Assembly (NCBI GenBank): GCA_027574665.1
Contig: CM050655.1
Span: 12,891,170-12,955,169 of the forward strand
DNA: 64,000 bases
Source of the DNA: Rhynochetos jubatus
Taxonomy: Eukaryota; Chordata; Aves; Eurypygiformes; Rhynochetidae
Reading direction: 5' to 3'
The notes below the pieces were generated by a model. The model worked only from the letters and a program-made list of their open reading frames with translations. It had not been told where the DNA came from and ran no database searches. Each line of letters starts with the position of its first letter. The stretch's first letter is position 1. The position numbers and the translations under genes are program-made. Below, one piece after another: positions 17,201-60,051 of this stretch.

Positions 17201-20200
17201 GCTCCAGGGAAGGTTTAGATTGGATATTAGGAAAAACGTCTTCACCAAAAGGGTTGTCAGGCACTGGAACGGCCTGCCCAGGGAAGTGGTGAAGGCACCA
17301 TCCCTGGAGGGATTTAGAAGACACGTAGATGTGGTGCACAGGGACAGAGCTTCGTGGTGGACTTGGCAGTGTTACATAACAGTTGGACTTTACGAACTTA
17401 AAAGTCTTTTCCAGCCTAAGCAATCCTATGATTCTGTATAAAGGACTGTGCTTGCTTCTCCCTTACCCCCTGCCCCCTCCCCCCAAGCCTTACACACAAG
17501 TAAACCCCAACAACAAAAAAACCAACCTTCTTGAAAAAGGTGTCCTTTCCTCTAGGAAAAGCAGCACCTCCCATGAACTAAACGGGCATTACAGGCAACT
17601 TCCCACAGCACAGGCATGAAGCAGAAATGGGACGCCCTTACAGTCACACAAGAAAATACAAGCATAGCCCTTAGGGACTGCTGGGTTCGCTGCCTGCTGA
17701 CACTAAACTGCACTCAGGGCCGTGAAACTGTTCTGGGTTTACTCTGCTGGGGAGAGTGGGGAAAGGAAGGCCAGAGAGGTGCAAGTATCATTCTGTAAAA
17801 ATTACTCAAATGATGTTAGACACCTCTGTCTAGACATGAAGTATGTCGTATTTTAGGGCTTTAGCACACAAATTAACCAACCAAATCCACTACTTAGATA
17901 CGGAAAGAGTTACAACTGTGTAAATCAGTGCTAAATATGTTAGATTTCCGGATGTTGCTTAATAAGCAACGGCACAATGACTACTCATCTCAGACTCTGA
18001 ATAGGATAAGTACATTTAAAATGATGATTTGGATCAAAGCACAACTTCAAAAATACTATTAAAAACCACATGGATATAAACAGAATATTGACACAGATTA
18101 CTGTTAAATCTTAACCCAGTGAATTTTAGATGAAGAAGCAAAATACACAGAAGCAAATCAATATTCAAATTGGTATGTCATTAAGTTACACAGTGCATGC
18201 AATTGATGGATGCTTCAACCCTTTCTCATTCCAAAAGCTCCAGCAATGCTGGGAGACAGGTGAAGACTGCTGGTATAATCTGGAGTACTCAGAGTGAATT
18301 ACACAGTTGGATCTTTGGGATTTTTTTTCTGAAGAAATGAGGGGGGAAAACAAAATTGGAAAGACACCCATCTCACTCTGTATACAAACTAGTGTCAGCA
18401 TAACACTAATACTGTGCTATGGAACATAAAAATAGGGTGTCTTCTTCAGACTGGCTGCCTTTCATTATCATTACCATCTTAATTAAGTTGTACTAGATTC
18501 TTGATTAAATAGATTTTTCACTAGCATGCTTCATTTTCATCTCCAAACCCAAACATTGCTCTCATGTTTTCATATTGTTTCGCAAAACAGCATTATTTTT
18601 GCAGTTATTTCTATTTCTAAACTATCTGCAAGTAAAACAGATTATCAGCAGAAAAACAAACCTAGAATCAACATGTATAAATCTAAAACTTAATTCAGCT
18701 AAGACACAAGCAATACCTAATTCCCATTAGAAGCAGGCAAACCATGCACATTAGGTTTCTTTAGCAAAAACCAGTGTAGTATGATTTACTTGCAGAAGAA
18801 ACAAAGCCACTAGCCACTACATTTAAAGGTGCCATTACCAGGACAACTAATTTGCAAGGAAGTAAGATGGTAGTTATTTAAGCAAATGAGATTTCTGTGC
18901 TTTAAATCCCACGTGCAAGACACCTCACAGTATCTCACTAAAAACTATTGGAAAACACACCATGGAGATAACGCCCCTCAGAGGTTAGCATGATTAAGCA
19001 TACCCAATACAGAAAAGTAGCACCAGCAAAATACCCACTTGTTACCACTCTTGCACACAGGCATTCAAGTGACCGCTGTGAGCCAGAACGGGGAACCGAT
19101 CCAGCCCAAATCGAAAGAAAACTTCTAACCTTCATCATCCGCTCACTGAACTGGCCACATGAACAAGAGAAGAGGCAGCTGAGAAGTAGCAACGGTAAAA
19201 GTGTTCTAAGGGTGATATTGAGCAAGCCAGCTACTTTGACAGAGGGATTTTGAAATTGCTTTTCAACAGAATCTGGATGATGTCTGAGGAAGAACAAACT
19301 GGACAGCCCAACTCACTTTTATGCTGTAGTCATTTAAGACATATACTGCATGAAAGGTTAGATGGAAACATACACAAAACAGCTCAACTGTACCCCTTTG
19401 AACAGGAAACTGAAACTAGTAACCAGCATTTGCTCATTTCCTGCTTTAGAACTAAAAAATCCACACATTTGACACACTGCATCGAGCTGTAAGCTCTGCT
19501 CCCAAGACGTACAAGACTGACACCAACTCACAGACACTATGCACAAGACCACTTAACAGAATCATTATCCGTTCCCAGCTACACTTGGAATTCTGTTGAC
19601 TGTGCTATTCAAATCACCCTACTAACTGAGAAAACACCTCTAAATTGTTTCTCAAATCTAGTTTACAGCTAAACATAGTTCTTGCAAGTCAAGCCTTGCG
19701 CACACAAGGATTTTGGGTCAGCCTGCCTCAGAGTCTGATTAGAAGCAACGGGAATGCATTCCTATCGCACTAGTTTTTGTAAGCACAAAATGTCAGTCTT
19801 ACTGAGAACACTTTCTCCAGCCCCTGGACAATGGTGTTTTACACTGTAGCTCCACCCATGCTGGAGCAATCAGCAGCCTACAGACCTTCCTGCCTACCCT
19901 TGTTTCTTCCCACACTTTTCCTCTCAGGATCAGAAAACCACCCGGTGGTGGATTCTTTCCTCTTCCTGGCACAGGTCTCGCTGTTTCAGATGTTCCTGAA
20001 AAACAACACACAGCAAAAGCCAAGAATATTTTATGCTACCCTAGGTCTTTCTCTTACTTTTCAAAAATGAGGCCAGAATTCTTTTCCAGAGCTTGAATAT
20101 TTGCCCTTCATCATTGTGTTTAGCATAAAAATGCCACATGTCCTATAGCAGGAGTGAAAAGTTCTATTTTTTTCTCCAAAAACCCTTACGTGCCACACAC

Positions 20201-23200: not shown

Positions 23201-24591
23201 TTCAGACACTGAACCCCTTCCCTTTTTTCCCCCCCCCCACTGAAGTCAGATACAGATCTGGGTAATAATTTTGTGTATCTTAATTTTTAAGTAGTAAAAC
23301 GTTGACATGGTTTAAGGAATCACAGTAAATTAATAAAATTTATATAGTCTTCTCTATCATGTTTACTGATCCCAGACAAGTCAGGATCAGGAAAATCAAT
23401 TTTCACTCTTAACAAGTTACTTCAAACACATACCATACCAGCTCTGGGGCCCTCAACATATGGAAACAGACCTGTTGGAGTGAGTCCAGAGGAGGGCATG
23501 AAGATGCTCAGAGGGCTGCAACACCTCTCCTACAAGGACAGGCTGGGAGAGTTGGGCTTGTTCAGCCTAAAGAGAAAGCTCCAGGGAGACCTTATAGCAC
23601 CTTCCAATACATGAAGGGAGCCTACAAGAAAGCTGGAGGGGGACTTTTGACAAGGGCCTGTAAGGGACAGGACAAGGGGTAACAGGTTTAAATTTAAAGC
23701 AGGGAGAATTAGATATCAGGAAGAAGTTCTTCACTGAGGGGGTGGGAGGCACTGGGACAGGTTGCCCAGAGAAGCTGTGGGTGCCCCATCCCTGGAAGTG
23801 TCCAAGGCCAGGCTGGATGAGGCTTTGAGCAACCTGGTCTAGTGAAGGGTGCCCCTGCCCATGGCAGCAGGGTTAGAACTAGGTCATCTTTGAGGTCCCT
23901 TCCAACCCAAACCATTCTATGATTCTGCCTAGTGTATTTACAGCTACAGGACACACCCCAACAGAGATCAAAGATGACCTAAAAGGAGATATTAGAAGAG
24001 ACCTCTCTTCAGAGGGAAGCAACATAATATACCACTTAAGTGCACTTAAAGGCAGCTTTAACTTTTGGCCAAACACAACCAGCATTTAATGGTCTCCATC
24101 ATTCAAAAGACAGAGGTCTTTTCAGCAACATTAGAGACTGAACTATTCTCTTTTGACAAATCCTTGGAGCAGATCTTTCCTTTCTCCATTAAAAAAAAAA
24201 AACAACAAAAACAAAAAACCCCCAGTAAAAACAGCTTTATCTGCTTCCCTCCTTTATCTTCACTCAAAGTACGACGGGAGGAAGGGGTTAGGAAGGAAAA
24301 GATTGTGAGGAATCAGTATCCATATCACTTCCAATAAACATTTTCTCACATGGGACAGGCTTCTTCAATTCCAAAACACCAAGGACATAGCATACATCAG
24401 CTTCCTGCTTTCAGGTAAATATTGCAGCCAGCTCTCCTGAATAAATACGTAAGAAGCCAATAAAACTGAGGTATGCCTAAACTATTTCAGTCTCTACATT
24501 TTGTACTCACCCAGAAGATAATGTTATAGCTGAAGAGCAGGTATTTGTACCAACAGCTGACTTCCACATTAGAATATCGGTAATAGTGCAT
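2184..24591 (-). CDS. TSPAN14: Tetraspanin-14 (TspanC8 subfamily), complete coding region in 8 exons
   Basis: Coding exons on the minus strand: 24591-24511, 16133-16083, 10823-10677, 9967-9797, 7134-7009, 4802-4758, 4254-4135, 2255-2184. All have AG/GT borders and all junctions are phase 0. They give 270 residues, the length I recall for mammalian TSPAN14. Four membrane segments surround a small and a large extracellular loop. The large loop has CCG at residues 153-155 and cysteines at about 153, 154, 170, 180, 186, 187, 200 and 221. Eight loop cysteines define the TspanC8 group (TSPAN5, 10, 14, 15, 17, 33), known to bind ADAM10, take it out of the ER and steer its substrate choice. A glycosylation sequon (NCS) lies at about 169. 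TSPAN14 rather than TSPAN5 or TSPAN17 is chosen from the start (MHYYRYSN), the [10 protein letters not shown] stretch and the [11 protein letters not shown]-like region. The C-terminus ends GNAF where human, from memory, has GHHF. Confidence 0.95.
2256..4134 (-). other. TSPAN14 last intron
   Basis: AT-rich intron between the exons ending at 4135 and starting at 2255. No gene, CR1 copy or other recognisable element was seen. Confidence 0.8.
4135..4254 (-). CDS. TSPAN14: TSPAN14 coding exon 7 (end of large loop, TM4)
   Basis: This exon has 120 nt and 40 residues (about 208-247). It contains the last loop cysteine (FVKGC) and the fourth membrane segment ([14 protein letters not shown]). The acceptor follows a pyrimidine-rich tract at 4270-4255 and the donor GT is at 4134-4133. 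Confidence 0.94.
4758..4802 (-). CDS. TSPAN14: TSPAN14 coding exon 6 (45-nt exon, NTQCGYDVR)
   Basis: A very short exon of 15 residues (about 193-207), [15 protein letters not shown], with loop cysteine 200. The acceptor is ttgcag and the donor is GTAAGG. It is too short to be seen by ORF length and is identified by family alignment from memory and by clean splice sites in phase 0. Confidence 0.93.
4918..5679 (+). mobile_element. CR1 LINE, 5'-truncated 3' end
   Basis: It has the typical CR1 3' region: GTGCAAGGTCCTGCAC, AAGCTCAACATGACTTG, GCCCAGAAAGCCAACC, then the 3' UTR ending in CCCTTCCAACCCAAACC and the ATTCTATGA-type tail. Inserted in a TSPAN14 intron, antisense to the gene. The piece lies in several broken frames, as expected of a dead LINE. 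Confidence 0.88.
5985..6026 (-). mobile_element. Short CR1 3' tail fragment
   Basis: The plus strand reads AGAATCACAGAATGGTTTAG and then GTTGGAAGGGACCT, the reverse complement of the CR1 3' end. It is only about 40 nt long and lies 300 nt from the larger CR1 copy but in the opposite direction, so it is a separate insertion. Confidence 0.7.
6721..6740 (+). repeat. Poly(A) run
   Basis: About 18 A residues in a TSPAN14 intron. No SINE body or CR1 tail precedes it, so it is listed only as a simple repeat. Confidence 0.6.
7009..7134 (-). CDS. TSPAN14: TSPAN14 coding exon 5 (CCG motif of large loop)
   Basis: This exon has 126 nt and 42 residues (about 151-192). It begins [20 protein letters not shown] and includes KCGVPFSCC, thus six of the eight loop cysteines and the NCS sequon. 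The splice sites are gttgcag and GTAAGT. Confidence 0.95.
7135..9796 (-). other. TSPAN14 intron
   Basis: Intron of about 2.7 kb with no recognisable repeat or exon. Short open frames here show no family resemblance. Confidence 0.75.
9797..9967 (-). CDS. TSPAN14: TSPAN14 coding exon 4 (TM3 and start of large loop)
   Basis: This exon has 171 nt and 57 residues (about 94-150). It covers the third membrane segment ([18 protein letters not shown]) and the helix A region ending [20 protein letters not shown]-rich tract precedes the acceptor at 9969-9968 and the donor is GTAAGT. Confidence 0.95.
10677..10823 (-). CDS. TSPAN14: TSPAN14 coding exon 3 (small loop, TM2)
   Basis: This exon has 147 nt and 49 residues (about 45-93). 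[19 protein letters not shown] forms the small extracellular loop, followed by membrane segment 2 ([20 protein letters not shown]) and the conserved [10 protein letters not shown] turn. Confidence 0.95.
11101..11115 (+). promoter_or_regulatory. CTCF-type site
   Basis: CCACCAGAGGGCGCC fits the vertebrate CTCF core CCASYAGRKGGCRS at every position. It lies in the TSPAN14 intron about 280 nt upstream of coding exon 3. Binding is inferred from the motif alone. Confidence 0.5.
13728..14160 (-). mobile_element. Old, diverged CR1 fragment
   Basis: The plus strand shows, in reverse-complement order, the CR1 landmarks AAACTGGACATGGTACTCCA, CTAGTATGCTGTTAGCCTT, CCCCCAGCCTATACTGATG and CTCTCATAAGGTTCCTGCC. 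Many substitutions and gaps separate them, so it is older than the copies at 4.9, 23.4 and 40.2 kb. The borders are approximate. Confidence 0.7.
16083..16133 (-). CDS. TSPAN14: TSPAN14 coding exon 2 (51-nt exon, end of TM1)
   Basis: A short exon of 17 residues (about 28-44), [17 protein letters not shown], in phase 0 on both sides. Acceptor AG at 16135-16134 and donor GT at 16082-16081. It finishes membrane segment 1 and matches the WAWSEK motif of the family. Confidence 0.93.
16967..17441 (+). mobile_element. CR1 LINE 3' end, second subfamily
   Basis: It runs from a GTCCAGAGAAGGGCAACAG region through TTCAGCCTGGAGAAGG and AGGCACTGGAACGGCCTGCC to CTATGATTCTGT. Internal differences (GCATAACTACTGTGAGAAG, the pre-tail AGTCTTTTCCAGCCTAAG) mark it as another CR1 subfamily than the copies at 4.9, 23.4 and 40.2 kb. 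It lies in a TSPAN14 intron just upstream of coding exon 2. Confidence 0.85.
23435..23930 (+). mobile_element. CR1 LINE 3' end
   Basis: The copy shares CCAGAGGAGG, AGAAGCTGTGGGTGCCCCAT and TTGAGCAACCTGGTCTAGTG, then CCATTCTATGATTCTG with the 4.9-kb and 40.2-kb copies. It is severely 5'-truncated. It lies in the TSPAN14 intron about 580 nt from the first coding exon. Confidence 0.87.
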
Positions 24592-33600: not shown

Positions 33601-36600
33601 GGACCATTTCTTAATTCCCCCTTAGCAACAGCCTGCAACATTTACTCTGAAGCAAGGAAAACTCTTGTTTGAGGGTTTTATTTACTCTACCTTAGGTACT
33701 TCAGCAAAAGTGCTTAAAAGAACACGAGAACCATGGCACATTCATGGATTTTTTGAATTGCAGCCTGCTAGCCTTGGAAACACAGCACAGATGCAAAGTA
33801 CAAAAATCCACTCTACAAAAAACAAAAGGTTTGAAGGTTTGGCCCAGAAAGCCACAGTGCAAAGCAGGTGGCACAAAAAGCCCACAGAATCAACAGTCTT
33901 GATTCATATGCGACTGAGGCATAAGTGTCTTTGTCTGGTATCTGAAACCCACATATTTTATCATACCCCACCCAAGTGGAACTTGTTTTTTTAAAGCAGA
34001 AAATAACAAAGGGAGGATCTGTAGGAACAGTTTTGACAAAAGCGAACTCCACTTCCCCACACGCACCTCAATGGGTTCTCTAACACAATGATATTAGAAC
34101 AAGAGTTGAATTTATTCACGCTCAGCAGTGCTCAAACTGTGCCACACCTAACACTTGATGGGAAACTTGATAGAAGACTATGCCAATTAATTGTAGCAGT
34201 TTGTCAGTAGAAAAAATGACCCCCCTCCCTCTTTTTTTCCAAACATCCATTTACAGGTAATGGCCAACTGGTAGCCACACATCAAAGCCTCATCAGCTAA
34301 ATATAACTACACTTTACGAAAATCAGATCAGACTCAAGACAAAGTGATCTATAAGGGATCAAAAAGCATACGCCTCAGTTATTCAGCAGAACTTAACCTA
34401 CAACTTAAACATCTCCATCCAGATTACCTACACATTTGCATCTGAGCCAAATTCATCACACACCATGTCAATTTTCTTGCTACATCTAAAAGCAAAAGTT
34501 TAAATCTTCAATACCAAAGAAAGCGTCCCAATTAAGCAGCATTTCAGAGCTCTGAGCAAGGGCTTTTCATGATCCTTTCATTAAGTACTACAAAGCCTAA
34601 ATCTAGCATAAGGTAGCCCAGAACGTACCCCATTTCAGTCAGGTATGTTACCGATGTGAAGGCTCTTGCACAGACATTGCTCCTAGCACAGTGCTCACAA
34701 CAGAATTATTTTAGCTTTCTTTTCATCATCCACCAACCCATCCTGCAAGGGGGACAGGGAGGAGAAGAAAGAGGCTTTAAACAGGAAAACAGTGCAAGAC
34801 TATTCTACAATGCCCTAAATGTCAGGCAAAACCTGTGCCCAGAGACAAGAATAAACTCAAGCAAGGTTTCTAATGATTTGGTCATCTTACTTGAGGACTG
34901 GAGATAATGCTTTGACACAAAGGAAGCTAACTGGATCAACTTACACTAAGTAAAAATCACACAGAGCACACACCAGACAGTGAAGAACAACTTTCAATGA
35001 TTTTGATTTAGTTCTAGACCTCACTTTAAGCAAGGCTTTGTCCGTCTATGAGTGACATCAGTAAAAATAAAGCAAAATGCCAACTACATAACTTCCTTGA
35101 ACATTGTTTTTTAACAGTATTATAAATGCATTTCCAAATTTTGGGGAAGCCATCTCACTGCTGCTTCAGTAACACTAATTTTCAACATGAAAATTTTCTA
35201 AGGACAGGCAACATAACTATGTTCTTTCCTCCCACCCCTCAAGAACAGAGCTGAAAGGACATACATCACACCTCCCAGTGTCATTAGCCAGAGGATAAAG
35301 AACACCACTTCAACAACACAGGCACCCTGCATTTGTGTTGTTTTGGGTTTCAGTTATTTATTTTTATAAAGAAAAAAAACCAACAACACACCCAAAAGGT
35401 GCAAAGTAATATCCAACCCCCAGCTCATTTCTACTTTACACCAAGTGACTAGACCTAAATTCTCTCCCTCCTGACCCCTTCCCTCACCACACAATGCCTC
35501 TGTCAAGCAGCCAGCGGTAGCTTCTCACCCAAACATTTAAAGTTTCACACATTTATTGTAAGTATAAAGTGGCTCAGGAAGTTATAAGAGCATGTGAGTA
35601 CTGATGTCTACATCACTGATGGAGATAGCCAGAAATACCATCACCCCACTGAGCATTGATGAACAAGATATACCCTGTACCTCCGTTCTCTAGGAGCTGA
35701 TGTCCTTCCATTTTCTCCAGAGCTCTAGGTCACAAGCTTTATGTGCTTATGGGAGGGGTGGAAACACCACACACAAAACAAACCACCACAGTGCTGGAAG
35801 AATCTTATCCTGACAGTTGTCTTAAAACGTTCTCCACCGCCACCTTTGAAGATTTACTAAGGAAGTGAAAGTCCAACACAACATGCATCGTGTTACCTTT
35901 ACACAGTGCCTCCCCCCCCCCATCACAGAAAAACCGCTCAAAACGAAACCACTAAGTCTATGTTGAGTACGTGAGATATAAAGTCAGACATATGCTTAAC
36001 AGCCTTATGCAGATGCTCTGCAAGGGCAAAATTGTGGTTTGCTATGCAGAAAAAAAAAAAAAAAGGCCAGTGTTGAAGTTAAGTGAGTACAACACCATGG
36101 GTCCTGCATAACACCAAGCCTTTTCAGGCTTAGCTTAAACCCTCGCCCTAGAAACACGCAAGGGCCATTCCCTTTCTTAAATAAGAAGTTCGCAAGGGAA
36201 AAGAAATCCACTTTCCTCACATTCACCATACATAAAGCATTTTATCTGAACTCTCCTCACAGGGTCTGGGTGCAGCAGCTTCTCAGCAGCACTCTGTAGG
36301 GGCCACAGAATACCACACTCACCTGAAACTGCAAAGACAACTGCAAGGTAGACCGTAAGTGACCTAAAAGGGAACTGGTGGTGTGTTTAATTATCCAAAC
36401 AACGTCTAGGGACCCCACAGGAAGCCGAAACAGGCCCGGCGGTTGGGCGCGGCGTCACCTGAGGGGACGGCCGGGCCTGTTTCGGCGGGAAGCTGAAAGG
36501 GTGTCAGAGCGGTCCCTCGCCAACACTGATTACAACTAATTAAAGTTAAATCGGTGGAAAAACCAAAGTTACAGACCTCGCCCCTCGCACACACGAAGCA

Positions 36601-37129
36601 GTTGCTTCTGCTACATCAACGCCTGGATTGAGGGCAGGGGCTTGGCAGCAGCCGGTGTAACAGCAGAATAAGGAGCAGGTAAAGACCGGGCAGCTGCAGC
36701 ACCTCGAAAGGTCCTTTTCTTATTATTTTTCAGTTATTTTTCTCCTTTGTGGCACCTCACTCAACGAAACAACTTCGCGTGAACTCCCAGAGGAAGCCTC
36801 GCCCGGCCTCTCCGGCTTCCTTCAGTGGCCAGGGACAACGCTGTAGAGACAACGCTGAAACGCCCCGCGTTTTCAGGAAACTCAGGGAGTCTGAGGGTTG
36901 CTGCCCCGGGGGAGGGCAGCGCTTGCTCCCCGCCCAGTTCAATGGCTGCCAGCTCCCACGGGATATCGCAGGCGAGAGCCGAGCTCCGAGGGAGGTGGCT
37001 CAAAATGCCGGTGCTTAGAGACGAGGTGGGGGAGAACGGGGCATACCGTACGGCGGGGACGCGGCACGACCCCCGAGACAGAGAGCGGAGGGGGATGTCC
37101 GGCCCGCGGTGGGGCGGGCAGGGACTCAC
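24609..37129 (-). other. TSPAN14 long 5' intron region
   Basis: About 12.5 kb with no CR1 copy that I can recognise, an unusually clean stretch that may hold enhancers or unplaced 5' UTR exons. One exon-like segment (26711-26853 minus) has an acceptor after a T-rich tract and a GTAAGT donor and is open in one frame. It does not join in frame to the next coding exon. Confidence 0.6.
30166..30186. repeat. 21-bp palindrome
   Basis: Ten-base arms (TGTCTCCATG and its exact reverse complement) around one T. No protein site is recognised. It may be a binding site for a dimer or chance. Confidence 0.5.
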
Positions 37130-37870
37130 CGGGAGCAGCTGCTCGCTAACTTTCGCCAAGTTGGGCGGACGGCGAGGCGGCGGACGGCGTACTCGGGGAT
37201 CCCTCGGCTGCCTCGGCTAGTCCATGGACACGGCGCTCTCGTACCTTCCCCGGCGTCGGCACGGCCGGCTGATGGAGCCAGGGGTGCCTCTACCGCCGAG
37301 CCACCCCGCTGCTCCTATACTCCCACCGGGGACGGAGGCAGCGCGGAAATACCGGCTACCCGCACGCAGGCGTGCTGCACACAAAGAGGGCGTCCGGGAG
37401 GCCCGGTTTTCCCTCCAGATCGCCCGGTTCCCGCGGGTCTTCGGGCAGCTTCGTCCGCCGTGACCCCCGCAGGCGTCCCCCGAGCTGGTGGGGGAGCCCC
37501 CGGTACCACGGGAAGGAACCCCGAGGCCGGGCGGAGGCTGCGAGCGCTAGCGGCCCCTGCCCCAGCAGCAGGAATGGCCGCCCTTCACGGTCCCGCCGCC
37601 CCTTCCCCGCGGGTGACCTCCCGCGGCCTCCCTCGGCGGCTCGGCCGGAGGAGTCCAGTACCCGCTCAGTAACGATCTCGGCTTTATTTCAGACTAGTTT
37701 TCTGGCCGAGATGGCCAACCCCCGCCCTGCGGAAGAGGCTCGGAGAGCTGCCCCGCCCCCGGGCCGGGCCGGGCCGAGGCAGCTCGGCCGTAGCCCGCGC
37801 GGCCGCACCGGCCCCTCAGAGGCGTTTCTCCCCCTCCGGGGGCTCTCGGGGCGAGAACTAGCGTGGCAGG
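36420..37870. promoter_or_regulatory. CpG island, probable TSPAN14 promoter
   Basis: Dense CG dinucleotides and a sharp rise in GC over the AT-rich surroundings. No TATA box was seen. Long open frames here (for example 37109-37672 plus) are the usual by-product of GC-rich DNA and show no family resemblance. The island could fire in both directions; nothing supports a plus-strand gene. Confidence 0.7.
37130..37320 (-). promoter_or_regulatory. TSPAN14: Likely TSPAN14 noncoding first exon and start region
   Basis: A strong donor (CCG/GTGAGT) on the minus strand at 37129-37124 ends a GC-rich segment at the heart of a CpG island. This is where a TSPAN14 first exon is expected. The upstream limit and the start site are guesses. 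Joining to the exon at 24608 is inference; an intron of about 12.5 kb would be needed. Confidence 0.4.
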
Positions 37871-40164
37871 GGCAGCGCTTTCAGGGTTTCAGGGTAACAC
37901 CGAGATTTGCCTGAGAAACCAGAGGAGAAGGAAAAAATATAAAACAACCCCGAAGAGTATTTTTAGTATTAAGGCGTCCCAGGGCTTTTTAATCTCCCTT
38001 TCGAGGTGCTGGGAAGGTAAGGGGAAGCAGGGGCTGAGTCGTGGTTTTTAAAACCATGTGGTGAGCAAGTGAGGAAGCAGTCACCTCCTGGCAGCTGGGG
38101 AAATGCCCTCCCCTTCCCTGTCTAGCTTACTTCCTACCTTCCCTGCACCACTCCCAATCCCTTCTTTTCTGTGCCTTATGATCCCCCGACACAGGGGAAC
38201 ACTTGGTTCATCTTTATTCCCCTCCTCATATATACTGCAAAACTCTTTTCTTCAGTGCCTCGCTATGAAAATACGTTAGTGTGCACGTAAGCAAGGCTAA
38301 GGAAGGTAGTTCCACGCCAGAGGCTTTACTACAGGCCTTCTGATAATTCCCTACACTTCCTACATCTGCTCCAGGGCTTGGGTTTTGGGGACTTCCTTAT
38401 TGTCCCTAGATCAGGAAACAGCACTGCTCCCACTGAGTGCTTGGCTGAAGGGTGAAAGGAACCTGTGAACAATTAAACAGGGTGAGCTTAGTGCTTCTCT
38501 TGGGCGGTAATTCTCCATTAGGTCAAGGCCAACAACCAAAACCACATTACGATTCATATGGCATAAATCCACAGTTCGCGTCGCCCACACGCACCTGAAG
38601 TCAGAGGAAGCACATGAGACACCACCAGTTTGTCACCCACCTGCTGGTCACATTATCAAGGTTCCTTCTCATCTCCTATGTGCAGTTTTCCAAAGAAATC
38701 TTAAAAAAAAGGGTGGGGGTGGGCGTTTGCCCCTTCAAAACTCAAATGCAGCACCTTGCCTTAGACATGGGTATTTGCTGGCTTAAGCCAATGGTAGGAA
38801 AGGCTGAATATTTCGAGGACCATAGCTAGGCTCAGCTGTCGCCCTGTCCCTCCAGACACCATTTCAGGACTCCAGTCTGGGTCTGGAGAAAGGCAACCCT
38901 AATTCTGCAGAGAGACCTAAAGATCGTTGCACAACAGCAGCTTCCTTATAGTCTCCTCTGTTTGCAGGATTCCCCGAGCTTGCTCGAGGCTTCTTCGAAA
39001 CCAAAGTAAAATCAAACTGACTGGTAAAGTTGAAAGAAGATGCTAGAAGCAGAATCACATGAAATTTAGGGAGGATCTAAGTAAGGAAGGGGAGCTAGGA
39101 AAGGTTATTGGATTGTGAGGTGGTAAAAAGAACTAAAAGAGCTCATTTCTTCATCTCAGAAGTACATCGGTTATCTTGCAGAGCACTGAGTCACATCTCC
39201 AGGGAAGTTCACAGCCAAGGCAGAAAGCTCCAGTGTGTTGCTTCTGTAAGAGGTGGGAAGAAGGAGGGTGATTCAGCAGGGGAAATGGGAAATTTCAGAG
39301 ATTCTCAGCAGCTTTAGGATGTAAGGATTGTGGAATTAGGCTGGGTATTCATCAGTACAATAAGGTTCTCCTGCAATTTGAAATAGTCTTGTAAAATGGT
39401 TAGCGTTAGCAGTTTGCGCAGTAGTTGAATTGACTGTGTTCGCTGTTAGCACACAGAAAGTTCAAAACAGCAGTCTGTGTCCCATTTAATTGCCTTTGAC
39501 ACTATCTCTGTTCTGTGTGCTTCAACGTGTTGCCAAGAAAATTGGGGTAACAATGTCACCCATCACAGAAACATTAACCAAGTGCAAGGGCAAATTGGAA
39601 GACTTTTAAAAGACAGTCACTTCAGCAGTAAAAGGGTGTAATAGGACTGCAGGAATGAAAATGGAAAATCTGATTTGTTAGCAGACTTGTGCAGGCTGAT
39701 GTTCATGTATGGTTTGTCAATGCTGTTTCCTCTGGCCACTACAAAACATTTCCGGAAATTAATGAATGATCCATTATGAGAAGCGGCTGGTGGAAAATGG
39801 CATGACCAGAGCTATTCACCAGTTCCACTGTATCTGCTCAGCACTATCATTATCATCAAACACAAATTTTCAGTGGAAAAAATTTCTATTTATGCAGAGA
39901 GGCTTCTGAAAATCAGAGTTAAAGTTGTAATTATCATGTGGTTTTGAAAATTATGAGAGAAAAGGGTGTGCAGGGAAAAAAAGTCCACAGAAGCTACAGA
40001 GAGACTTTAAACACCTTCAAATACTAAGAAATTAGTAGCTGAACCTACAAGGGAAAGTAAAAATATTTTAGGGAAAACCTTTGTAACATTTCTTATATTT
40101 CTTAACATTTCAGTAACACAGAAGCATGGCCAGCAAGTCAAGGGAGGCGATTCTCCCCCTCTGC

Positions 40165-40697
40165 TCTGCCCTCGTGTGATCCCACCTGCAGGTCTGCATC
40201 CAGCTCTGGAGCCCCCAACATCAGAAGGATATCGACCGGTTGGAGCAAGTCCAGAGGAGGCCACGAAGATGCTCCGAGGGATGGAATACCTCTGGCTATG
40301 GGGACAGGATGAGAGTTGGGCTTGTTCAGCCTGGGTAAGAGAAGGCTCTGGGGAGACCTTATAGCATCTTCCAGTATGTGAAGGGGGTACAAGAAAGCTG
40401 CAGGGGGATGTTTTGACAAGGGCATGTGGTGACAGAACATGAGGCAATGGCTTTAAACTGAGAGGGGACAGATTTAGTTTAGGTATCAGGAAGAAATTCT
40501 TCCCAGAGAGGGTGGTGAGGCACTGGAACAAGCTGCCCAGAGAAGCTGTGGATGCCCCATCCCTGGAAGTGTCCAAGGCCAGGCTGGGTGAGGCTTTGAG
40601 CAACCTGGTCTAGTGGAGGGTGTCCCTGCCCAGGGCAGGGGGGTTGGAACTGGATGATCTTTGAGGTTCCTTCCAATCCAAACCATTCTACGATTTT
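40165..40697 (+). mobile_element. CR1 LINE 3' end, intergenic
   Basis: Same subfamily as the 4.9-kb and 23.4-kb copies: GATCCCACCTGCAGGTCTGC, AGAAGCTGTGGATGCCCCAT and a tail CCATTCTACGATT. It lies between TSPAN14 and PRXL2A. The very similar 3' 200 nt of these three copies point to one active period. Confidence 0.87.
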
Positions 40698-42899: not shown

Positions 42900-42958
42900 C
42901 AAGGACTGTTTATGCCTTTCACATTTCATGTTTATGTGAAATGCATAAACAGCCCTTG
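42900..42958. repeat. 59-nt inverted repeat (hairpin)
   Basis: Left arm 42900-42924 and right arm 42934-42958 pair over 25 positions with two mismatches around a 9-nt loop (TTCATGTTT). Arm size and loop resemble a microRNA precursor or the core of a small inverted-repeat element. No known microRNA seed is recognised. Confidence 0.75.
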
Positions 42959-44890: not shown

Positions 44891-44896
44891 TTTATT
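44891..44896 (-). terminator. PRXL2A (SELENOU): PRXL2A poly(A) signal
   Basis: AATAAA on the minus strand, about 350 nt after the stop codon and about 70 nt after the SECIS-like fold, so a transcript cut here would keep the SECIS. Confidence 0.75.
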
Positions 44897-44962: not shown

Positions 44963-45029
44963 GTCTCTGACTGAAAACATCTAGGCTAGGCCAGATTTTA
45001 GACCCAGCCTTTCATTAATACAGTCAGAC
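44963..45029 (-). ncRNA. PRXL2A (SELENOU): SECIS element (selenocysteine insertion), candidate
   Basis: Read 5' to 3' on the minus strand: helix I, GTCTGACTG (45029-45021) against CAGTCAGAGAC (44973-44963). An internal loop follows, then ATGA (45015-45012) facing AGAT (44982-44979), which gives the U.U, G.A, A.G, A.A quartet required for SBP2 binding. Helix II, AGGCTGGGTC with GGCCTAGCCT, is ten pairs including two wobbles. An 8-nt apical loop carries AAAA (44999-44996), placed 12 nt after ATGA as in known elements. The small apical loop suggests form 1. It lies in the 3' UTR of a gene with an in-frame TGA, which supports the call. The AAAA-to-AGAT distance (13 nt) is shorter than in many SECIS elements. 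Folded by hand only. Confidence 0.82.
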
Positions 45030-45246: not shown

Positions 45247-45345
45247 TTACGAAGCTTGTGGTTTTATCTTCTCAGCAGCTTCAAGGACAGCTGGAAGGCT
45301 GACTTTGTCTCCAAATTCTTTCTCACGATGCTCCAGTAAAACACC
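45247..45345 (-). CDS. PRXL2A (SELENOU): PRXL2A last coding exon
   Basis: This exon has 99 nt: GVLLEHREKEFGDKVSLPAV onward to KIKPQAS and a TAA stop at 45249-45247. It corresponds to the human ending that starts GILLEHREKEFGDKV. It is a few residues shorter than human at the C-terminus. Confidence 0.95.
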   Translation of the reverse strand, partial: GVLLEHREKEFGDKVSLPAVLEAAEKIKPQAS

Positions 45346-48300
45346 CTGGTCAAAGACACAAGACAGAAATTCATACAACTAGTCTCCCCACGGGAGATCA
45401 AATGACCAGCAACTGAACAATTCCAGAAAAGAAACTTTTGGTCTCACAGGAGACATAAAAGCCTCTTAGATGGCCTGCAGTACCTGTCTTTCTGCCCCAA
45501 TCACATATACTCCTCCCAGGGTGAATCCTTCTCCTTCCAGGTTACCACTATATCCGCTTTTCCAAGCACGGAAGAAATTCTGCCAGACTCCAAAGCGGAA
45601 TAAGCCTGACAGCATCATTTGTCGTCTGCGTGGACCATAGAAGCCTTTCTGCAGGGAAACATAAAAACTCAGCAAACAAAGTAAAGAGAACTTTTTCTCC
45701 CAAATGAAATTCAGGAAGCCAGCCAACCTTGTATCCAAGCAAGGTCGCAACACAAAAGCTAACCAGACAGAGCTAAAAAGAAATTGTACTAAACTCTTTA
45801 AGGCACTACATGACCACTTACCTCCACACAGCCAACTAGTGGTACTGCTACCATTCAAGTGGATTTTAAGCTGATCCACAGGCACTTAAGCCCCACGTAC
45901 AACCCTACAGCTCACAGCAAGGCTGCTTTGTGATAAACATCTTGTATCTTATTTTTGAAGCAAGGCAATAAAAATGCTGGTAAAGAGAGAACAGTGGTGC
46001 CACGCCCTGAAACTTCATCAGCCATCAGCCATTCAGTTTTTGGTTTAGTTTGGTTTGAAATCAGCCTGATTGTTTCACACAGGCAGAGTGAGGAGGGAAA
46101 ATAAGGTATCTTCTAGTTGATATTGAGTGTTACGTATTTTTTTTCCTTCAGAAGCTGAACGATTTCTAAACACGCCTTCTGGGTTAAGGAGTAAGCAGGG
46201 CTGCGGTTTTGTAGGACATGAGACCGGCAGTACAGCATGTGCCGGGGGGCTTGGACAAGCCACATCACTGCTATTCGGCCTGTATATCATAAACGAATCA
46301 TGTCTGTCACCTTTAGACCTTGACTCACACATCATAAACATCAGCAAGTCACACAGCCAGTGGAAGTAAGGAATAAATATTAATAGGTCATATTGTTTAC
46401 CTGTTAAAGGGGAAGGGAGGACTAATCCTGCAACAGCATGTTATTAACGCATAGCTACAGTGCAGTTTGTAAGCTGAGCTGAAGACATATACATATATAT
46501 AAAAGCAAAGCTAATTAACTTCTTAAACTACAATGCTACTAAACCCTTTTTCTTCCAGACCACAATCTAACCGTATTATTTATACCAGCTCTTTAAAGAA
46601 GACATTCATAAGCTTGTTTTTAAACAAAAGAAGAACACTGACTTCACCATACCTTTTCATCCAGAAATATTTCTCCTTGGAAATAATGCTGAAAATCCTC
46701 CACTTCAGTCCCTATCTTTTCTTTCACAACAGCATAGAGAGGGACACCCAGCTTGGTCAGCAGAGGTTTCAGAGAGGAGAGCTCAGAAGCCTCCTGGGAA
46801 AGGAAAAAAACCCAAACATAGATGGAGGTTGGAAAGCTGCACCTTGAATTTCAAGAGCATCAGAAACACACATTAATTGTAGCTAGAGGTGCAAAACTGA
46901 AACAGACCTGTAAATCAGACATTTAAGCTAGCTCTACTCCTAAGCAGGTCTTCATTAGATTTACTAGTTTTCTTCATTAAGCACAGAGGAAGGAGGGTTT
47001 TAGAGAATTTACTAAATAAAATACTAAAATCCTGGAGAAAACATGGTTTTAACTCAAAGCTATATAATATATACCTTGCCTGGGCTTCAGGTATCTTTGG
47101 AAGTGTTTACAGAACAGTGAAAATAGAGTGCCTACACATCACTTAACTTTCCCAGTGAAAATCAGGGAATTTCTTCATAAACCTCCAGTATCCCAGAAGC
47201 CATACTGCTTTTTTTGGTGCGTAAGAGCGTAAGGTGTCGCCACTCATCTGCTGGGTATTTTCTTCTGCGGAAGGAATCTCAGTTCCCCCAGTTGGTGCAA
47301 AGGCCCCCGAGGTTCCCAACAGATCAGAGTGCACACTGCAAATATGTTTCTTCTCCTCTCCAGTGGAGAAAGGTCATTTTTACTGGGCAAAACTCTCTCA
47401 AAGAACTCCACACTTTAAAAAATGGACACTGCTTACGTGAACACCCTCAGCCGTCTAATCAAAACGCCTTAACTCAAAGGCTTGTGGGATAGCTAGAATT
47501 TACTGACTATCAAGCAGCAGAAAGAGAGGGGTGAACAGACAAGAGAAAAGACACTAAAGACATCAGTAGGTGAAAGATTAAGGGCAGCTTTCGAGTTCAC
47601 TACTCTGTCTTTTTTAGAGGAAGTGAAAAAGGATGAATCAGCACCACAATGCGATTTTTTTTATATACTTCAAAACTCTCATAATCAACAAAACAAAGGA
47701 AAAAACCCGATACTGTGACCTAACACCTCTGAGAACTGATGTTCTCGGCTAGTGCAGTGGGGTCCCCTGTAAGACCGGAAATCGCCATCTCTGGAGAGAT
47801 AGCAATACCATCAAACCTCGAGTAGCCTTTTGAAGTGCGGCACTTCAGCAGTTTGGTGGGGCTTATTTTGTGTCTCCTTGCTTGGATTTGGGGAGGAGAA
47901 AGAGCAGGAGTAATTAAGAGCATAGTTAAGTTTTAAAATTCTCAAGAGATTAGACTTCAAGCAGCACCTTGGGACTAGACCTGACTTGTTTTCCTTTACT
48001 GCTCTTTAAAAATGATACAATAAGAGAAAGCAAAGAAGTCTATTTTTGTGTGCAAATCATAGCACGTAGCAGCTGTACAGCCTTACCATGGGGCTGTGCC
48101 CATTTCATCTAGTCAGTGAAACTGTTTACTTGGTTTTGTAAAAAGCAGGCAAGCACACCCTAGAAGGATACTTCCTCTGTCCACCAAGGCAGGGACAAGC
48201 CAAAAGAACAACTCCCATTGCAGTTTGACCCCTGATAGTTCAACTATGTCTCTCCTGCTACTTTTTCGATCGCTTGAGTTGATGCCTAGGCTATGTCACG

Positions 48301-50721
48301 AGCCTATGGCACTTTCGCAATGATCGGAGCACTGGATTACTACATGGCCGGATCCAGACCATGGGATGTAGAAGTGTCTATCTTAAATAACACAAAAGGA
48401 ATCTTACAATTTAAGATGCCAATGATAAAAATAAAAGCCTCCATACTCCTTAAGTCTACAGGCCTCAGTTCTCAAGGATCCAAACACATCATTCCACTAG
48501 GATTTGTGTCATCCTTTGCAGCAGATAATGGAAGCATGTCCTCACCACTAATGACAGGTTGATGATATATGAGGTAGAAAGGCCACTTTTCAACCCTACC
48601 ACTGTGGCCAGGGAAGTATATATTCCTTCGTGGTGCTGTCAACAAGGACAAAGTTCAACATCCCTTCCAAGGTGTAAGATAGTGGAAAGCAAGTGCATTG
48701 TGTCTCTTGCAAACAAATAAAACCCTACTGCCTGCAGGTTAACATATATGGCAAGACACATGTGTTGAACCATTCCATCAGCTCAGAGTCAGTGACAGTG
48801 AAGAAAGAAGCAGCTTTCATACTGTGGAGAAACATTAATGGACAAAAAAAAGGGGCAACTGAACTGTCCTTAGGACAACTACAAGAGTCAACTCACAGAA
48901 ATACGTTGAGTTACAACAATCAAAAATAAGTTCAGTCTAGACAATTTAAAAGCTTTTTCAAACACTTTCACAGTTAAAATATAAAGCAATTCTTTGCCCT
49001 AATAGCTGATCAGTGGTTTGATTGTCTCTATTAAAAATCTGAAGTTTTAAACCAAAAATTAGAATTAGAAAATTAACTTTCTCTCTCCTCATTTCTTTTT
49101 CCCTGGGAGCAAAAAAAAAAAAAAGACAAACCACAATTCTTTGAAGTGGGCTCTTTATTTCTACTTAGGAAGTTAGCATTAAAAAAAAGAAAGTAAAATA
49201 TCAATGAATTCCATCTGACTGTATACAAAAGGCACAGAATCAGGCATGCAGCACATTCTCCCTCTGCCTATGCTACACCTGTCCAGAGAGCAAAGTACTT
49301 TAATCTTTAACCTTCCATGAATTCTACACATACTTAACCAGTTACTACTGATGGGAGCAAATCCCTTAATTAAGTGGTTGCAATATTAATTACTCCTTGT
49401 TACAGAGCAGGGAATAACAACATAATAGCTATTTTTCCCCATAGCTATGAGAAAAATAATGGCCCAGGTGCAAGTTATGGCTGTTCCCAGGCACACGGTA
49501 GATTCAAATTGTATTTTAAGTGTCTCTTCCACCTAAGAAGCCTAATGCCAACTTAAGGATCAAATTTTGTTTCCCAACCCACCTTGTCATGGAACAGTAA
49601 CTCCTTGTCTTCAGACTCCTTACTTTCCTGCCTCACGTTCAGCATCCAGAACAGCAAAAGACTCCCTTTATGCACATCTTTCTTTTGCTGTTGAGCTTTA
49701 TCTGATGGCTTTCTGCCAGTCCAGTCTTGGGCTGCCTTTGACCAGAGACTCCCAATCTCACAGAGATTCATTTTGGACATATGGAATACAGCTATCTCAC
49801 AAAACTCATTCCCAATTGGATTTTGTGTAATCTCCCTTCCTAATTACCATGGGCTTGGTCCCTGTCAGATGTAAAAACCACGTCCATCACCTTCAGATGG
49901 AAAATGCTCAGGACCTAGACTATACACAACGGCTGCAAAGAAAACTAAGTATGCTGTTAGCTGGCAACCAGTCTGGGTTAGGAAACGACCTTTCAGATAC
50001 TTGTGATGTATTTGATGACTGTCCTATTCACCCCTCCCTTTATTTAAATGGAATCTATTCAAGTAGAGCTTAACTCTTCCTAATTAATCCCCAAACCCAA
50101 CAAGTACCTCTCTGCACAAAAATCATCCAGGTCTTCGCACAGCCATGATCACTGCACCATTCTTCTTCCATAGTTCACCTGCTTTGAATGTTCTTTGTTC
50201 TGTTTATGCAGGAGAAAGCATCAACAATAATATCAGCCATTCTTCTTTACAATGATCAATGCTTTAAGAACCAACATAAAGCACTGCAGAGAATTCCACT
50301 TTCAAATACAGTTCTATCAGAAAAAAAAATTCTATATGCACAGTATGGTATTAATGCGTTATTGATTTTGGTGGCTTTTCCTTCACCAGAATTATCTGCT
50401 ATCAAGGACACCCAACTTCATGATAACAAGTTATAAAACTAGGAAAGACTAAGAAAAAAACCCTCTTCTAACCCTGGTCTTACAAAGGTTCCTATAAAAG
50501 CCCAGTTACAGAAGAATGTGGGCTGAAACATCCAGAATCTTACCTGATCCCAAAGTTTTTAGCTCTATCTCCTCCAAAAACTCCAATGTAGCCTTTTCTG
50601 GCTTGGACAAAAATAAGTCAGTGTTAGCAAGGACGATCCCTGTCACAGCTGCACCAATGGCTCCAAGACCAATAGACCAAACGCCCATGGTGAAGATCCC
50701 AAAGTCGGGCAGGAAGGACAT
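45247..50721 (-). CDS. PRXL2A (SELENOU): Selenoprotein U / peroxiredoxin-like 2A, complete coding region in 5 exons with a selenocysteine codon
   Basis: Coding exons: 50721-50544, 50199-50108, 46793-46653, 45648-45484, 45345-45247 (675 nt, 224 residues). The product is a thioredoxin-fold protein of the FAM213/PRXL2 family, a redox regulator of cytoplasm or mitochondria in mammals. Residues 14-33 form a hydrophobic N-terminal segment. TFKAGELW leads into the catalytic stretch AVRRPG-U-F-L-C-R-E with selenocysteine 85 (TGA) and Cys88. Further on come GVPLYAVVKE, EGEIFLDEK-like and SGNLEGEGFTLGGVYV. Human PRXL2A has cysteine at position 85. Birds and fish are known to keep selenocysteine in this family (SelU). 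The first intron is phase 1 and the rest phase 0. The start follows the family start MSFL. The reading frame is intact apart from the single TGA. Confidence 0.95.
45484..45648 (-). CDS. PRXL2A (SELENOU): PRXL2A coding exon 4
   Basis: This exon has 165 nt and 55 residues (138-192). It contains FYGPRRRQMM, GVWQNFFRAW and the family signature SGNLEGEGFTLGG. Acceptor ctgcag, donor GTACTG (a weaker form). Confidence 0.95.
46653..46793 (-). CDS. PRXL2A (SELENOU): PRXL2A coding exon 3
   Basis: This exon has 141 nt and 47 residues (91-137), EASELSSLKPLLTKLGVPLY and on to GEIFLDEK. It is phase 0 at both ends and continues directly from the selenocysteine exon (CRE/EAS). Acceptor ttcccag, donor GTATGG. 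Confidence 0.95.
46794..50107 (-). other. PRXL2A intron 2-3
   Basis: Intron of 3.3 kb, AT-rich, with an (AT)-rich low-complexity stretch but no CR1 copy. An 89-codon open frame at 48293-48562 (plus) resembles nothing I know. Confidence 0.75.
50108..50199 (-). CDS. PRXL2A (SELENOU): PRXL2A coding exon 2, with selenocysteine
   Basis: This exon has 92 nt, entered in phase 1 and left in phase 0: (S)EQRTFKAGELWKKNGAVIMA and on to RRPGUFLCRE. The acceptor (AAACAG) has a weak pyrimidine tract. The exon is invisible to ordinary ORF tracks because of the TGA. Confidence 0.94.
50123..50125 (-). other. PRXL2A (SELENOU): Selenocysteine codon (UGA recoding site)
   Basis: TGA on the minus strand between GGA and TTT, in the motif RRPG-U-FLC. 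Residue 85 matches the first catalytic cysteine of mammalian PRXL2A. It is the only in-frame stop before the true TAA, it sits at the redox position, and a SECIS-like fold lies downstream, so read-through as selenocysteine is the best explanation. Confidence 0.92.
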
Positions 50722-55999: not shown

Positions 56000-56960
56000 A
56001 ACACGCATTTCAACTCCAACCCGCAGCTCAGGGCGGGCTGGATGCAGAGCGGAGGCTGTAAGGCAGCAGCTCGGCCGACAGCCCCAGCTGAGACCAGCTG
56101 CCCCCGCGCGCTTCGCCCTTGCGGTGGGCGCGGTAGGGACAGTCGCCGTGGCTCTAGAAGGCCGGGGGCACTGCACACGGGTACTTCGGGCAGCCCGAGG
56201 GCGCCTTCTGGCCATTTCTGAGTAGCGCGATCGCACCCAGGACCAAACCAAGGCACTGGGAACGGCGTGGGAACGAGCATAGCGCCGGTCCACCCGGCTG
56301 CGCTGCGCAAGAAGGCAGGCATCAGTGTGATCGCTGGTTCCCAAGGGCAGGCACACGCAGGCCGTGGGACCTCACCGCACGCTGGTGGCGGGAGCGGCGG
56401 GCCCAAAGGCCACCACGGCCCTGCAGGGGGGCGGGAGGGGCCCGCAGCGCGCCGCACACCTGTCCCGCGCTGCTCCTCATTTCTCCGGAGCCAGTCACGG
56501 CGGCCGTCCCTTCCCCGCCGCACCGTAACGCGGGACCAGCCCCCGGCCGGGTCACGGCCGACAAGCGGCGACGGGGGAAGAGCCGGCGGCCGGGCCGGGG
56601 CAGCAGGCCGGCGGGGAAGCGGCGCAGGCCCGGCGGCGCTGCGGGAGCGGCCCGCCCCCCGCGCCTGGTGCGGCGCCGGTTCTCGCGACCCCCCTTCCCT
56701 TCCCCTCCTTTCCGTCCCGTCCCGCCGAGCACCCCCCGCCCCGCGCCCGCACTCACACCGCCGCTCCCGGCCCCGCGGCCGCCGCAAGGCACGTGCGGGC
56801 GGGCGGCGCGCAAGCCCCGCCCTCCGCGGGCACCGGCGGCACCTCGCCCAGCCCCGCAGCGCCACCGGCCGCGGGGCTCTGCGCCGCACGGGCTTACCCG
56901 GAGCTGCCGCGCTGGTGGTAGGGACCGGGGCGAAAGAGAAGCCTCTCCCCGCCCCCGCGA
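56000..56960. promoter_or_regulatory. PRXL2A (SELENOU): CpG island, probable PRXL2A promoter and first exon
   Basis: Very high GC and CG density, with a donor-like GTGAGT on the minus strand at 56756-56751 that could end a noncoding first exon lying at about 56757-56900. The 377-codon minus frame and 239-codon plus frame across the island are composition artefacts: Arg/Pro/Ala/Gly-rich with no family match. Confidence 0.6.
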
Positions 56961-58249
56961 CCCACCTCCCCTCACTGGGGCTTTGAGAGCTTCTGGCTAA
57001 GCAGAGAGAAACGAAATGTAAGATACTGCACTTAAAGCGCATCTCAGGCCAAAACGAACTGAGCTTATCACTCAAGAAGTCTGATTAATAGGGCACTTAA
57101 AATGCTTACATATACATTACGTTCAAGAATATACTTGCCCAGATAACCAGCCCGTAACGTGTCACAACATCGTTTAACGAACATGCTCTTCTGTCGCTGG
57201 TGGTCATTAGGCACCGCTCCAGCCAAAAGCTCGGAGGACTCGTCTTCCCTACCTCGGGAGTATTTCCTGAGGTCTCCTGATAAGCTGGTGCTTACAATAC
57301 CAAAACCCAAACCAAGAAGAGGCAGCAGCAATGACGGCACAGTCTGGCCAGCGACACAACAGCAGGTCAGGCGAACAATCGTGACCTCTTTGCTGGCACC
57401 AGAGTCTACGTCCCAAACTCACCCAGCCCAAACGGCCTTCTCTTATCCCTCTCTTAACTGGGAGTCACCAGCCACCCTGGTTAGACCTGCTCAGTTTACC
57501 CCTTACTGACAGTTTCTGTTTATCTTCAGTGCAGAGCTTGGTTTTTTGAGGAACGAACGTCACCGCAAAACAACTGTAACTGGAAGCGACAGCAGCGTCA
57601 CGGTTCTGACCCAGCGCAGTTCAAACTGGAGGCAACGTGCCACGCGTGCTGGGACGCACGGGCACTCATCACCGGGAAGCCTGCCTGAGCGCCCCAGCAC
57701 ACCCCTTTGAGCCCAAGACCCCGCAGCTTCCCAGAGGCCCGCTGCTCCCTGGCCAGGAGAGCGCAGCAGCCCTGCACTGCCGGACTGCAACACGGAGCAG
57801 CGGTTGTTCAAGACGGCGCTCCGTTGCATCATGTTGCTTAGTTCAGATCAGAACGGCACGGTCTCAGGCAGCTGCAGGGAAAAGATTTTGGGTATTTTTG
57901 GCCAAAATTGTGGTAGCTATGGTTTTATATATGCACATGCGTCTAGAAATCAAATGGATTGTAAAAAGCACCAAAGTCACTCAGACTTCATCAGCCATAA
58001 AAAACGACCTAAGGAAACTTTATGGCAGAAGCAGCATCACCAGACTGTGTGAAAGAGCTGGGGAATCTGGAAGGACTGTAAGGCTAAGGGCTGCTTTTTT
58101 CCCTTGGAAATACATGAAACCAACAAGCATCTTCTCCTTTTTCTCCTTATCCAGGGTGGGAAGATCCTCTGCCAAAACCAAACATGCTGTAGTAGCTTTC
58201 TCACTAGTTCTGAAATGCAATCAGCATTAGGATACATGTATCTTTGCCA

Positions 58250-58460
58250 CTGTGACACAGCCATCTTTGGAAAAATACCGTGACAAAAAAAATGATTTGC
58301 CAAATTTTGTCAGCCATCATCATGTAATTGAACCCCGAATTTCTGCAGGCTGTCAACATTCCATTCTTCTGAATTTTATAATGGCTGCGGCTCCAGCTGT
58401 CAATATTTAGCAACAGAGAATTGCAGCTCCATTATTTTTGTTGCCATGGTAAGCACACAA
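58250..58460. promoter_or_regulatory. Possible regulatory element with RFX X-box
   Basis: GTTGCCATGGTAAG at 58440-58453 matches the palindromic RFX X-box GTTGCCATGGTAAC at 13 of 14 bases. A further half site (AGCAAC) lies about 30 nt upstream and a TEAD-type ACATTCCA is within the same 200 bases. The AT-rich, low-repeat texture resembles a conserved noncoding element, which cannot be tested here. Confidence 0.35.
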
Positions 58461-59813
58461 AACAAACCCCCAAACTTTTATCTTCACGATACTTCTGCAC
58501 ATTACACCTCTAACAATCTGGCAGCTGGCCTTCACAATTCAAAGGTAGCCAGTATTCCTGAGGGGGAAAAAAACCACCTATCACAAGATGAAAACATCTT
58601 TTTATTTATTCTTTGCTCTGAGTAAGAGTCCATGACAAGGCATCAGGCAAGAACAATAAGCAGTTAAGCACAGGAGTGACGTTGACTTCATCTGTCCCTA
58701 TTGTAAAAAGGAAAGATGCAGAAATATCTGAGCCCGTACATCTGGATTCCACCCAAGAGTATCTTTCTACTTCACAAAGCCATGCAATCTCTTGAATGTG
58801 CATGCACATGTCATGAAAACACTGAAACCTAACCTCCTCTGCCTACCTCTCCAGAAAGACTTGCTTTCCATGAAAACCTAGTGTTGCGTAAGTGGAGTTG
58901 CAGCAACAACTGCTTTGTCCTTACTCTACCAGCCCTGCCTTCACTGCTTTAGAAAGGGAGTGAGATTTTGTCAGAAAAGCTGAATGGGAACTCAACTTCT
59001 TCGGTTTTCTGTTTTTCCCTCTTAATAAAAATCATATTATCATATTAATCTACAATAGTTTAGCTTTTCCATACACCAAATTCAGATGTTATTCACACTT
59101 TTTCTTTTAAAGAAAAGAATAAAGTCCCTAACACGCACAAAAAGAACATTTCACAGAGCAACAGGCACCAACATTTAATCTTCTAGTTCTCAGGCGCTGA
59201 ATAATGCTCTTAAAACACACATAGAGCCCTTCTCTTCCTGCTTTCGTAATTCAGTTTTACAGCAGTTAAACTGACCGACGAGAACCAGTCTGCAAACTAC
59301 TTGTATTATCAGTTAATTACATTTCCCTAGCATGCCCGTGCCTAAGTCACCCAGCATGCACCGTATCAGCATCTATGCTAAAACATGATCTAGCATTACA
59401 AAACTTCCAATTCATGTACCGAATGACAACTGCGTGTTATTTCAGAAGTTAATTATTTCTATTTCTTGTTGGTTCATGCTTCTATAGATCAGCCTCAGAC
59501 CAAGGGTGTTGTTAGACAAATGGCTTATGTTCAACAAACTGTCTTTTCTATCAGGAAACCGATCATCTCAAAAGCAATGAGGAGAGAGACAGTGGCCTGC
59601 TAAGGTAGGAACTAGGCTCTGTGTCTGCAGGACTTCCAGACTAATTAAGACTTTCGATACTGAGCCAGTAAGAGTGGATGCAGATATACAGAGCTTGAAT
59701 TTTTCACCCATGTGCTTCTAAAGGCATATCCACACAGAGGCAGGTCAACCCAAGTTTGAGCTAAACCAGGCAAAAGCCAACCTTTGTTTGGCGGCTGTAG
59801 AGTGATCTGTAGT

Positions 59814-60051
59814 CACGTGGTGATGCTTTCAGCCCCATCCTGATTATCAGGCAATAAAAGCACCAGTCTGTCTACAGACAGCTTGGACCCAGGACCTTAG
59901 ATTTATCTTAAGATCAGGGTGCGGTAGTCACTGAAGAAACCGAAGGACCTACAGGTCTTTTGAAATCAGTTTCACCCGCACAAGCAGTTCACAATGGAAC
60001 AGCAAGAACAGCAACACCCTCCATCTGGACAAGAACAGGAAGAAAGAATTA
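59814..60051 (+). promoter_or_regulatory. Candidate plus-strand promoter and first coding exon
   Basis: In order: E-box CACGTG (59814-59819), TATA-like CAATAAAAG (59852-59860), and an ATG with strong start context (ACAATGG) at 59994. A frame MEQQEQQHPPSGQEQEERI then ends at a consensus donor A/GTAAGT (60051/60052). I do not recognise the peptide and find no second exon in the remaining window. A gene starting here would run into the EXOSC3 locus on the other strand. Could be chance. Confidence 0.22.

Follow-up and report, generated by a model that had tools for sequence, protein, structure and literature searches.

A gene on the minus strand of the 64,000-nucleotide stretch of kagu (Rhynochetos jubatus) DNA analysed here, referred to below as the window, is very probably the orthologue of selenoprotein U1 (SelU1; PRXL2A, FAM213A), and the UGA at its codon 85 would be read as selenocysteine (Sec) by means of a SECIS element in the 3'UTR. 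The assignment to selenoprotein U1 is made because an in-frame UGA, a match to the protein family, a SECIS and a layout like that of the turkey gene are found together, because no second copy is among the matches listed in a whole-genome search, and because skipping of the UGA exon breaks the reading frame. The SelU1 identified in the kagu is a known bird selenoprotein, real, rightly interpreted in the initial annotation of this DNA, and not novel. This type of protein, the gene itself and its presence in birds have all been published (PMC4466519, PMC3316567, PMC2397514 and PMC3473315).

Gene structure and the in-frame UGA

Joining of the exons gave five coding exons that extend on the minus strand from 50721 down to 45247 (Table 1). 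The exon for which Sec recoding was initially proposed is real and belongs to this strand, which had not been given earlier. The spliced coding sequence has 675 nt, that is 225 codons including the TAA stop, and specifies a product of 224 residues, in keeping with the length first proposed. A GT donor and an AG acceptor were found at all four exon junctions and the frame is kept across each of them, as had been claimed of the splice phases. The first coding exon has an open frame, an AG two bases ahead of its ATG and a GTAAG donor behind; the start of the first exon itself lies at least 2 bases upstream of the ATG.

Table 1. Positions in the window of the coding exons and 3'UTR elements of the kagu PRXL2A/SelU1 gene.
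Feature	Position	Strand	Remarks
First coding exon	50544..50721	-	ATG at 50721; codons 1-59 and base 1 of codon 60
Sec-codon exon, 92 nt	50108..50199	-	TGA, predicted Sec codon, = codon 85 at 50125-50123
Third coding exon, 141 nt	46653..46793	-	exon joining and genome-search match
Fourth coding exon, 165 nt	45484..45648	-	exon joining and genome-search match
Last coding exon, 99 nt coding, TAA stop	45247..45345	-	exon joining and genome-search match
SECIS element	44969..45025	-	Rfam SECIS_1 (RF00031); ahead of AATAAA; core AUGA...AAA...GAU at 44979-45015
AATAAA poly(A) signal	44891..44896	-	350 nt past the stop codon

Within the spliced frame, the TGA at codon 85 of 225 is the sole internal stop, so both the position "Sec85" and the statement that this TGA is the only one in frame were borne out. 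Its exon is bounded by an acceptor AG upstream and a donor GT downstream and reads ...NGAVIMAVRRPG-TGA-FLCRE, which in the spliced product becomes AVRRPG-U-FLCRE and contains a U-x-x-C motif. The in-frame UGA with a frame continuing beyond it, by which a selenoprotein gene is recognised, is thus present at codon 85, and 139 residues follow the predicted Sec85 in the kagu product.

Protein family and redox motif

In the Pfam search, the AhpC-TSA_2 family (PF13911) matched residues 94-202 of the product with 71.7 bits (cut-off 27, E 8.6e-20), and the matches to AhpC-TSA and Redoxin stayed below their cut-offs. The best match among solved structures was prostamide/prostaglandin F synthase (PDB 9us9, E 2.4e-15), a distant, peroxiredoxin-like-2 relative having its redox motif in the same place. 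In the alignment U85 and C88 stand opposite the two cysteines of the CxxC of 9us9, the kagu product having UxxC instead, and the placing of the TGA at the first position of a U-x-x-C motif by the initial annotation is upheld. The same annotation held that the flanking residues fit the family on both sides; this stands as far as the solved relative PRXL2B is concerned, which was the sole comparison made. Both features expected of a SelU/PRXL2 protein were consequently found, namely the AhpC-TSA_2 domain (PF13911) and, just ahead of it, the C/U-x-x-C redox motif, in the form UFLC when set against 9us9.

The second structure match was the chain 9usa, in which serine takes the place of both CxxC cysteines. 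Six more distinct sequences appeared in the structure search with E values of 0.014 to 0.91 and were taken as chance matches.

SECIS element in the 3'UTR

The SECIS in the 3'UTR (Table 1) is an addition to the initial annotation, which had none. The match to RF00031 covers model positions 1-64 of 64 and scores 32.2 bits, 2.8 bits under the Rfam gathering score of 35, with an E value of 0.0079 in a search of 28 kb and of 0.0001 in a search of the 369-base UTR alone; SECIS_1 was the top match in both of these. No further SECIS match was listed in two Rfam searches jointly covering the whole window. On its strand the element folds with -29.8 kcal/mol, compared with -13.15 (sd 2.43) for shuffled sequences (z -6.85), and none of 200 shuffles was as stable. 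In the fold, two helices flank the AUGA/GA core and the apical loop reads UAAAAUCU; the 37-nt core begins 231 nt past the stop codon and 654 nt past the first base of the TGA. As the SECIS of a selenoprotein gene, the element accordingly combines an RF00031 score below the gathering score with a fold far more stable than its shuffles and a turkey-like distance from the UGA.

The bare SECIS core pattern occurs in the window at chance frequency (4 matches vs 3.78 expected). In a structural scan of our own, whose criteria were fixed only after the Rfam match was known and which gave matches in 6 of 60 shuffled windows, two places were picked, both on the minus strand: 44980-45015, in the core of the 3'UTR SECIS, and 3971-4007. 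The latter was rejected as a second SECIS and regarded as a chance match because it folds no more stably than shuffled sequence (z 0.04) and because it is not listed by Rfam.

Comparison with known selenoprotein U genes

The turkey SELU (FAM213A) transcript KR528576, sequenced in a paper of 2015 (PMC4466519), has its UGA at 240-242 and its SECIS at 888-924 and carries a Sec codon at the position taken by Cys in mammals, as the initial annotation had also said of the mammalian proteins. From the published coordinates, the distance from UGA to SECIS is 648 nt in the turkey and 654 nt here, and the SECIS has 37 nt in both. The primer pair used for the turkey transcript gives an amplicon of 141 bp. 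In the kagu gene the corresponding primer sites also enclose 141 bp, with 35 of the 40 primer bases matching and 5 differing, whereas the number of residues after Sec is 143 as implied by the turkey table (PMC4466519) and 139 in the kagu. The proposed orthology with SelU1 is drawn from this agreement with turkey SELU and not from a tree. SelU1 is favoured over SelU2 and SelU3 by the 35 matching primer bases, by the equal amplicon length and by the distance of the SelU3 match, prostamide/prostaglandin F synthase being SelU3 according to PMC3473315.

Sec-containing SelU was initially stated to be known in fish and birds, and it is so listed in a vertebrate survey of 2012 (PMC3316567), where fish, birds and platypus are the groups given with a Sec form of SelU1, every Sec-containing SelU is assigned to the SelU1 group and the conversion of SelU1 from Sec to Cys is mapped to mammals. 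The kagu product would likewise be a Sec-containing SelU, and no difference from the vertebrate SelU1 described there was seen. The platypus is reported to have the Sec form and other mammals the Cys form only (PMC2397514), and the presence of SelU in birds is also reported in PMC3473315. Two further papers, on mRNA levels of chicken selenoprotein U (PMC6680911) and on tRNA-Sec (PMC5330540), have no bearing here.

Alternatives to recoding

The TGA might be a true nonsense mutation in a gene that is decaying in the kagu, a reading with which its place inside a coding exon, three introns being downstream, would agree. One TGA and one TAA were moreover counted in the genome match of the TGA exon, although the TAA sits in the preceding intron, into which that match runs. 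Against decay, the exons past the TGA are open and their GT/AG junctions intact, the TGA coincides exactly with the first cysteine of the CxxC, a SECIS is present in the 3'UTR, and the turkey transcript has a UGA and a SECIS at nearly equal spacing. Decay is consequently judged very improbable, and the initial claim of recoding instead of decay draws support from the TGA at the CxxC site, the 3'UTR SECIS and the open downstream exons.

Recoding would likewise be unnecessary if the TGA exon were spliced out, a case that the initial annotation had itself raised. Nothing was found in its favour, and the loss of 92 nt shifts the frame: counted from the codon formed across the new junction, a stop follows after three codons, which leaves exon skipping with hardly any probability. 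The stop would also vanish if a Cys codon had been misread in sequencing or assembly, since TGA is one base away from TGC or TGT; yet a SECIS is present in the gene, and at the equivalent position of the turkey transcript, which was sequenced, there is likewise a UGA, so that such an error is scarcely credible.

Proposed mechanism

The protein factors of eukaryotic Sec insertion are SECISBP2 and eEFSec. On the reading of the kagu gene as a Sec-containing SelU1, SECISBP2 would be recruited by the 3'UTR SECIS, Sec-tRNA(Sec) would be brought by eEFSec, and the UGA of codon 85 would be decoded as Sec. The resulting peroxiredoxin-like-2 protein would have a thioredoxin fold and a redox site of the form U-x-x-C, and is predicted to be a thiol/selenol redox enzyme whose chemistry would proceed through U85 and C88. 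For Sec insertion in eukaryotes, a Sec tRNA and a SECIS in the 3'UTR are required (PMC4466519). Decoding of the UGA could also be partial and regulated by the supply of selenium, so that a truncated form of 84 residues and the full selenoprotein would both be made and have separate roles; no feature of the sequence specifically supports this, and it is considered improbable.

Copies in the genome

When the genome (1.33 Gb, 148 contigs) was searched with the spliced product, five matches were listed at E values up to 1, and these are the five exons described here. No second copy of the gene was among the matches listed for this query against the whole genome, a search in which the best candidates are scored, five in this case. 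The SelU2 and SelU3 paralogues were absent from them as well, and therefore the search is no guide to distant copies. With the PF13911 profile as query the genome gave zero matches, so that even the PRXL2A/SelU1 locus was missed, probably as a result of the short exons.

Implications for annotation

In a report of 2026 (PMC12822975), vertebrate selenoprotein genes are described as well annotated in 11% of cases in Ensembl and 5% in GenBank, and 77% of the vertebrate cases are correct in RefSeq, which has a dedicated pipeline. Given this poor annotation in Ensembl and GenBank, the joint check for a UGA and a SECIS is useful for annotation. With the kagu gene a further selenoprotein gene of familiar type has been placed correctly, but no new biology is gained.

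Other features of the window

In the interval 4063-10967 (-), three open frames matched the Pfam family Tetraspanin, one of the three reaching the cut-off. They belong to a tetraspanin gene, probably TSPAN14, which shares its strand with PRXL2A and lies downstream of it; in mammals TSPAN14 is a neighbour of PRXL2A.

A hairpin at 42900-42958, with 25-nt arms that are 92% complementary and 9 nt apart, gave weak matches to mir-471 and mir-3910, far under the gathering scores, and may be the remnant of a small palindromic transposon. Four open-frame stretches were also noted, at 17118-17441 (+), 40007-40609 (-), 4918-5362 (-) and 23413-23682 (+), all of which are similar to the terminal parts of the reading frames of CR1 LINEs; a Pfam search of 17118-17441 and 40007-40609 gave no match. 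Finally, two segments of the window, 36001-40000 (0.528) and 56001-60000 (0.523), are rich in G+C compared with the other 4-kb steps (0.371 to 0.440), and are possibly CpG-island promoters.
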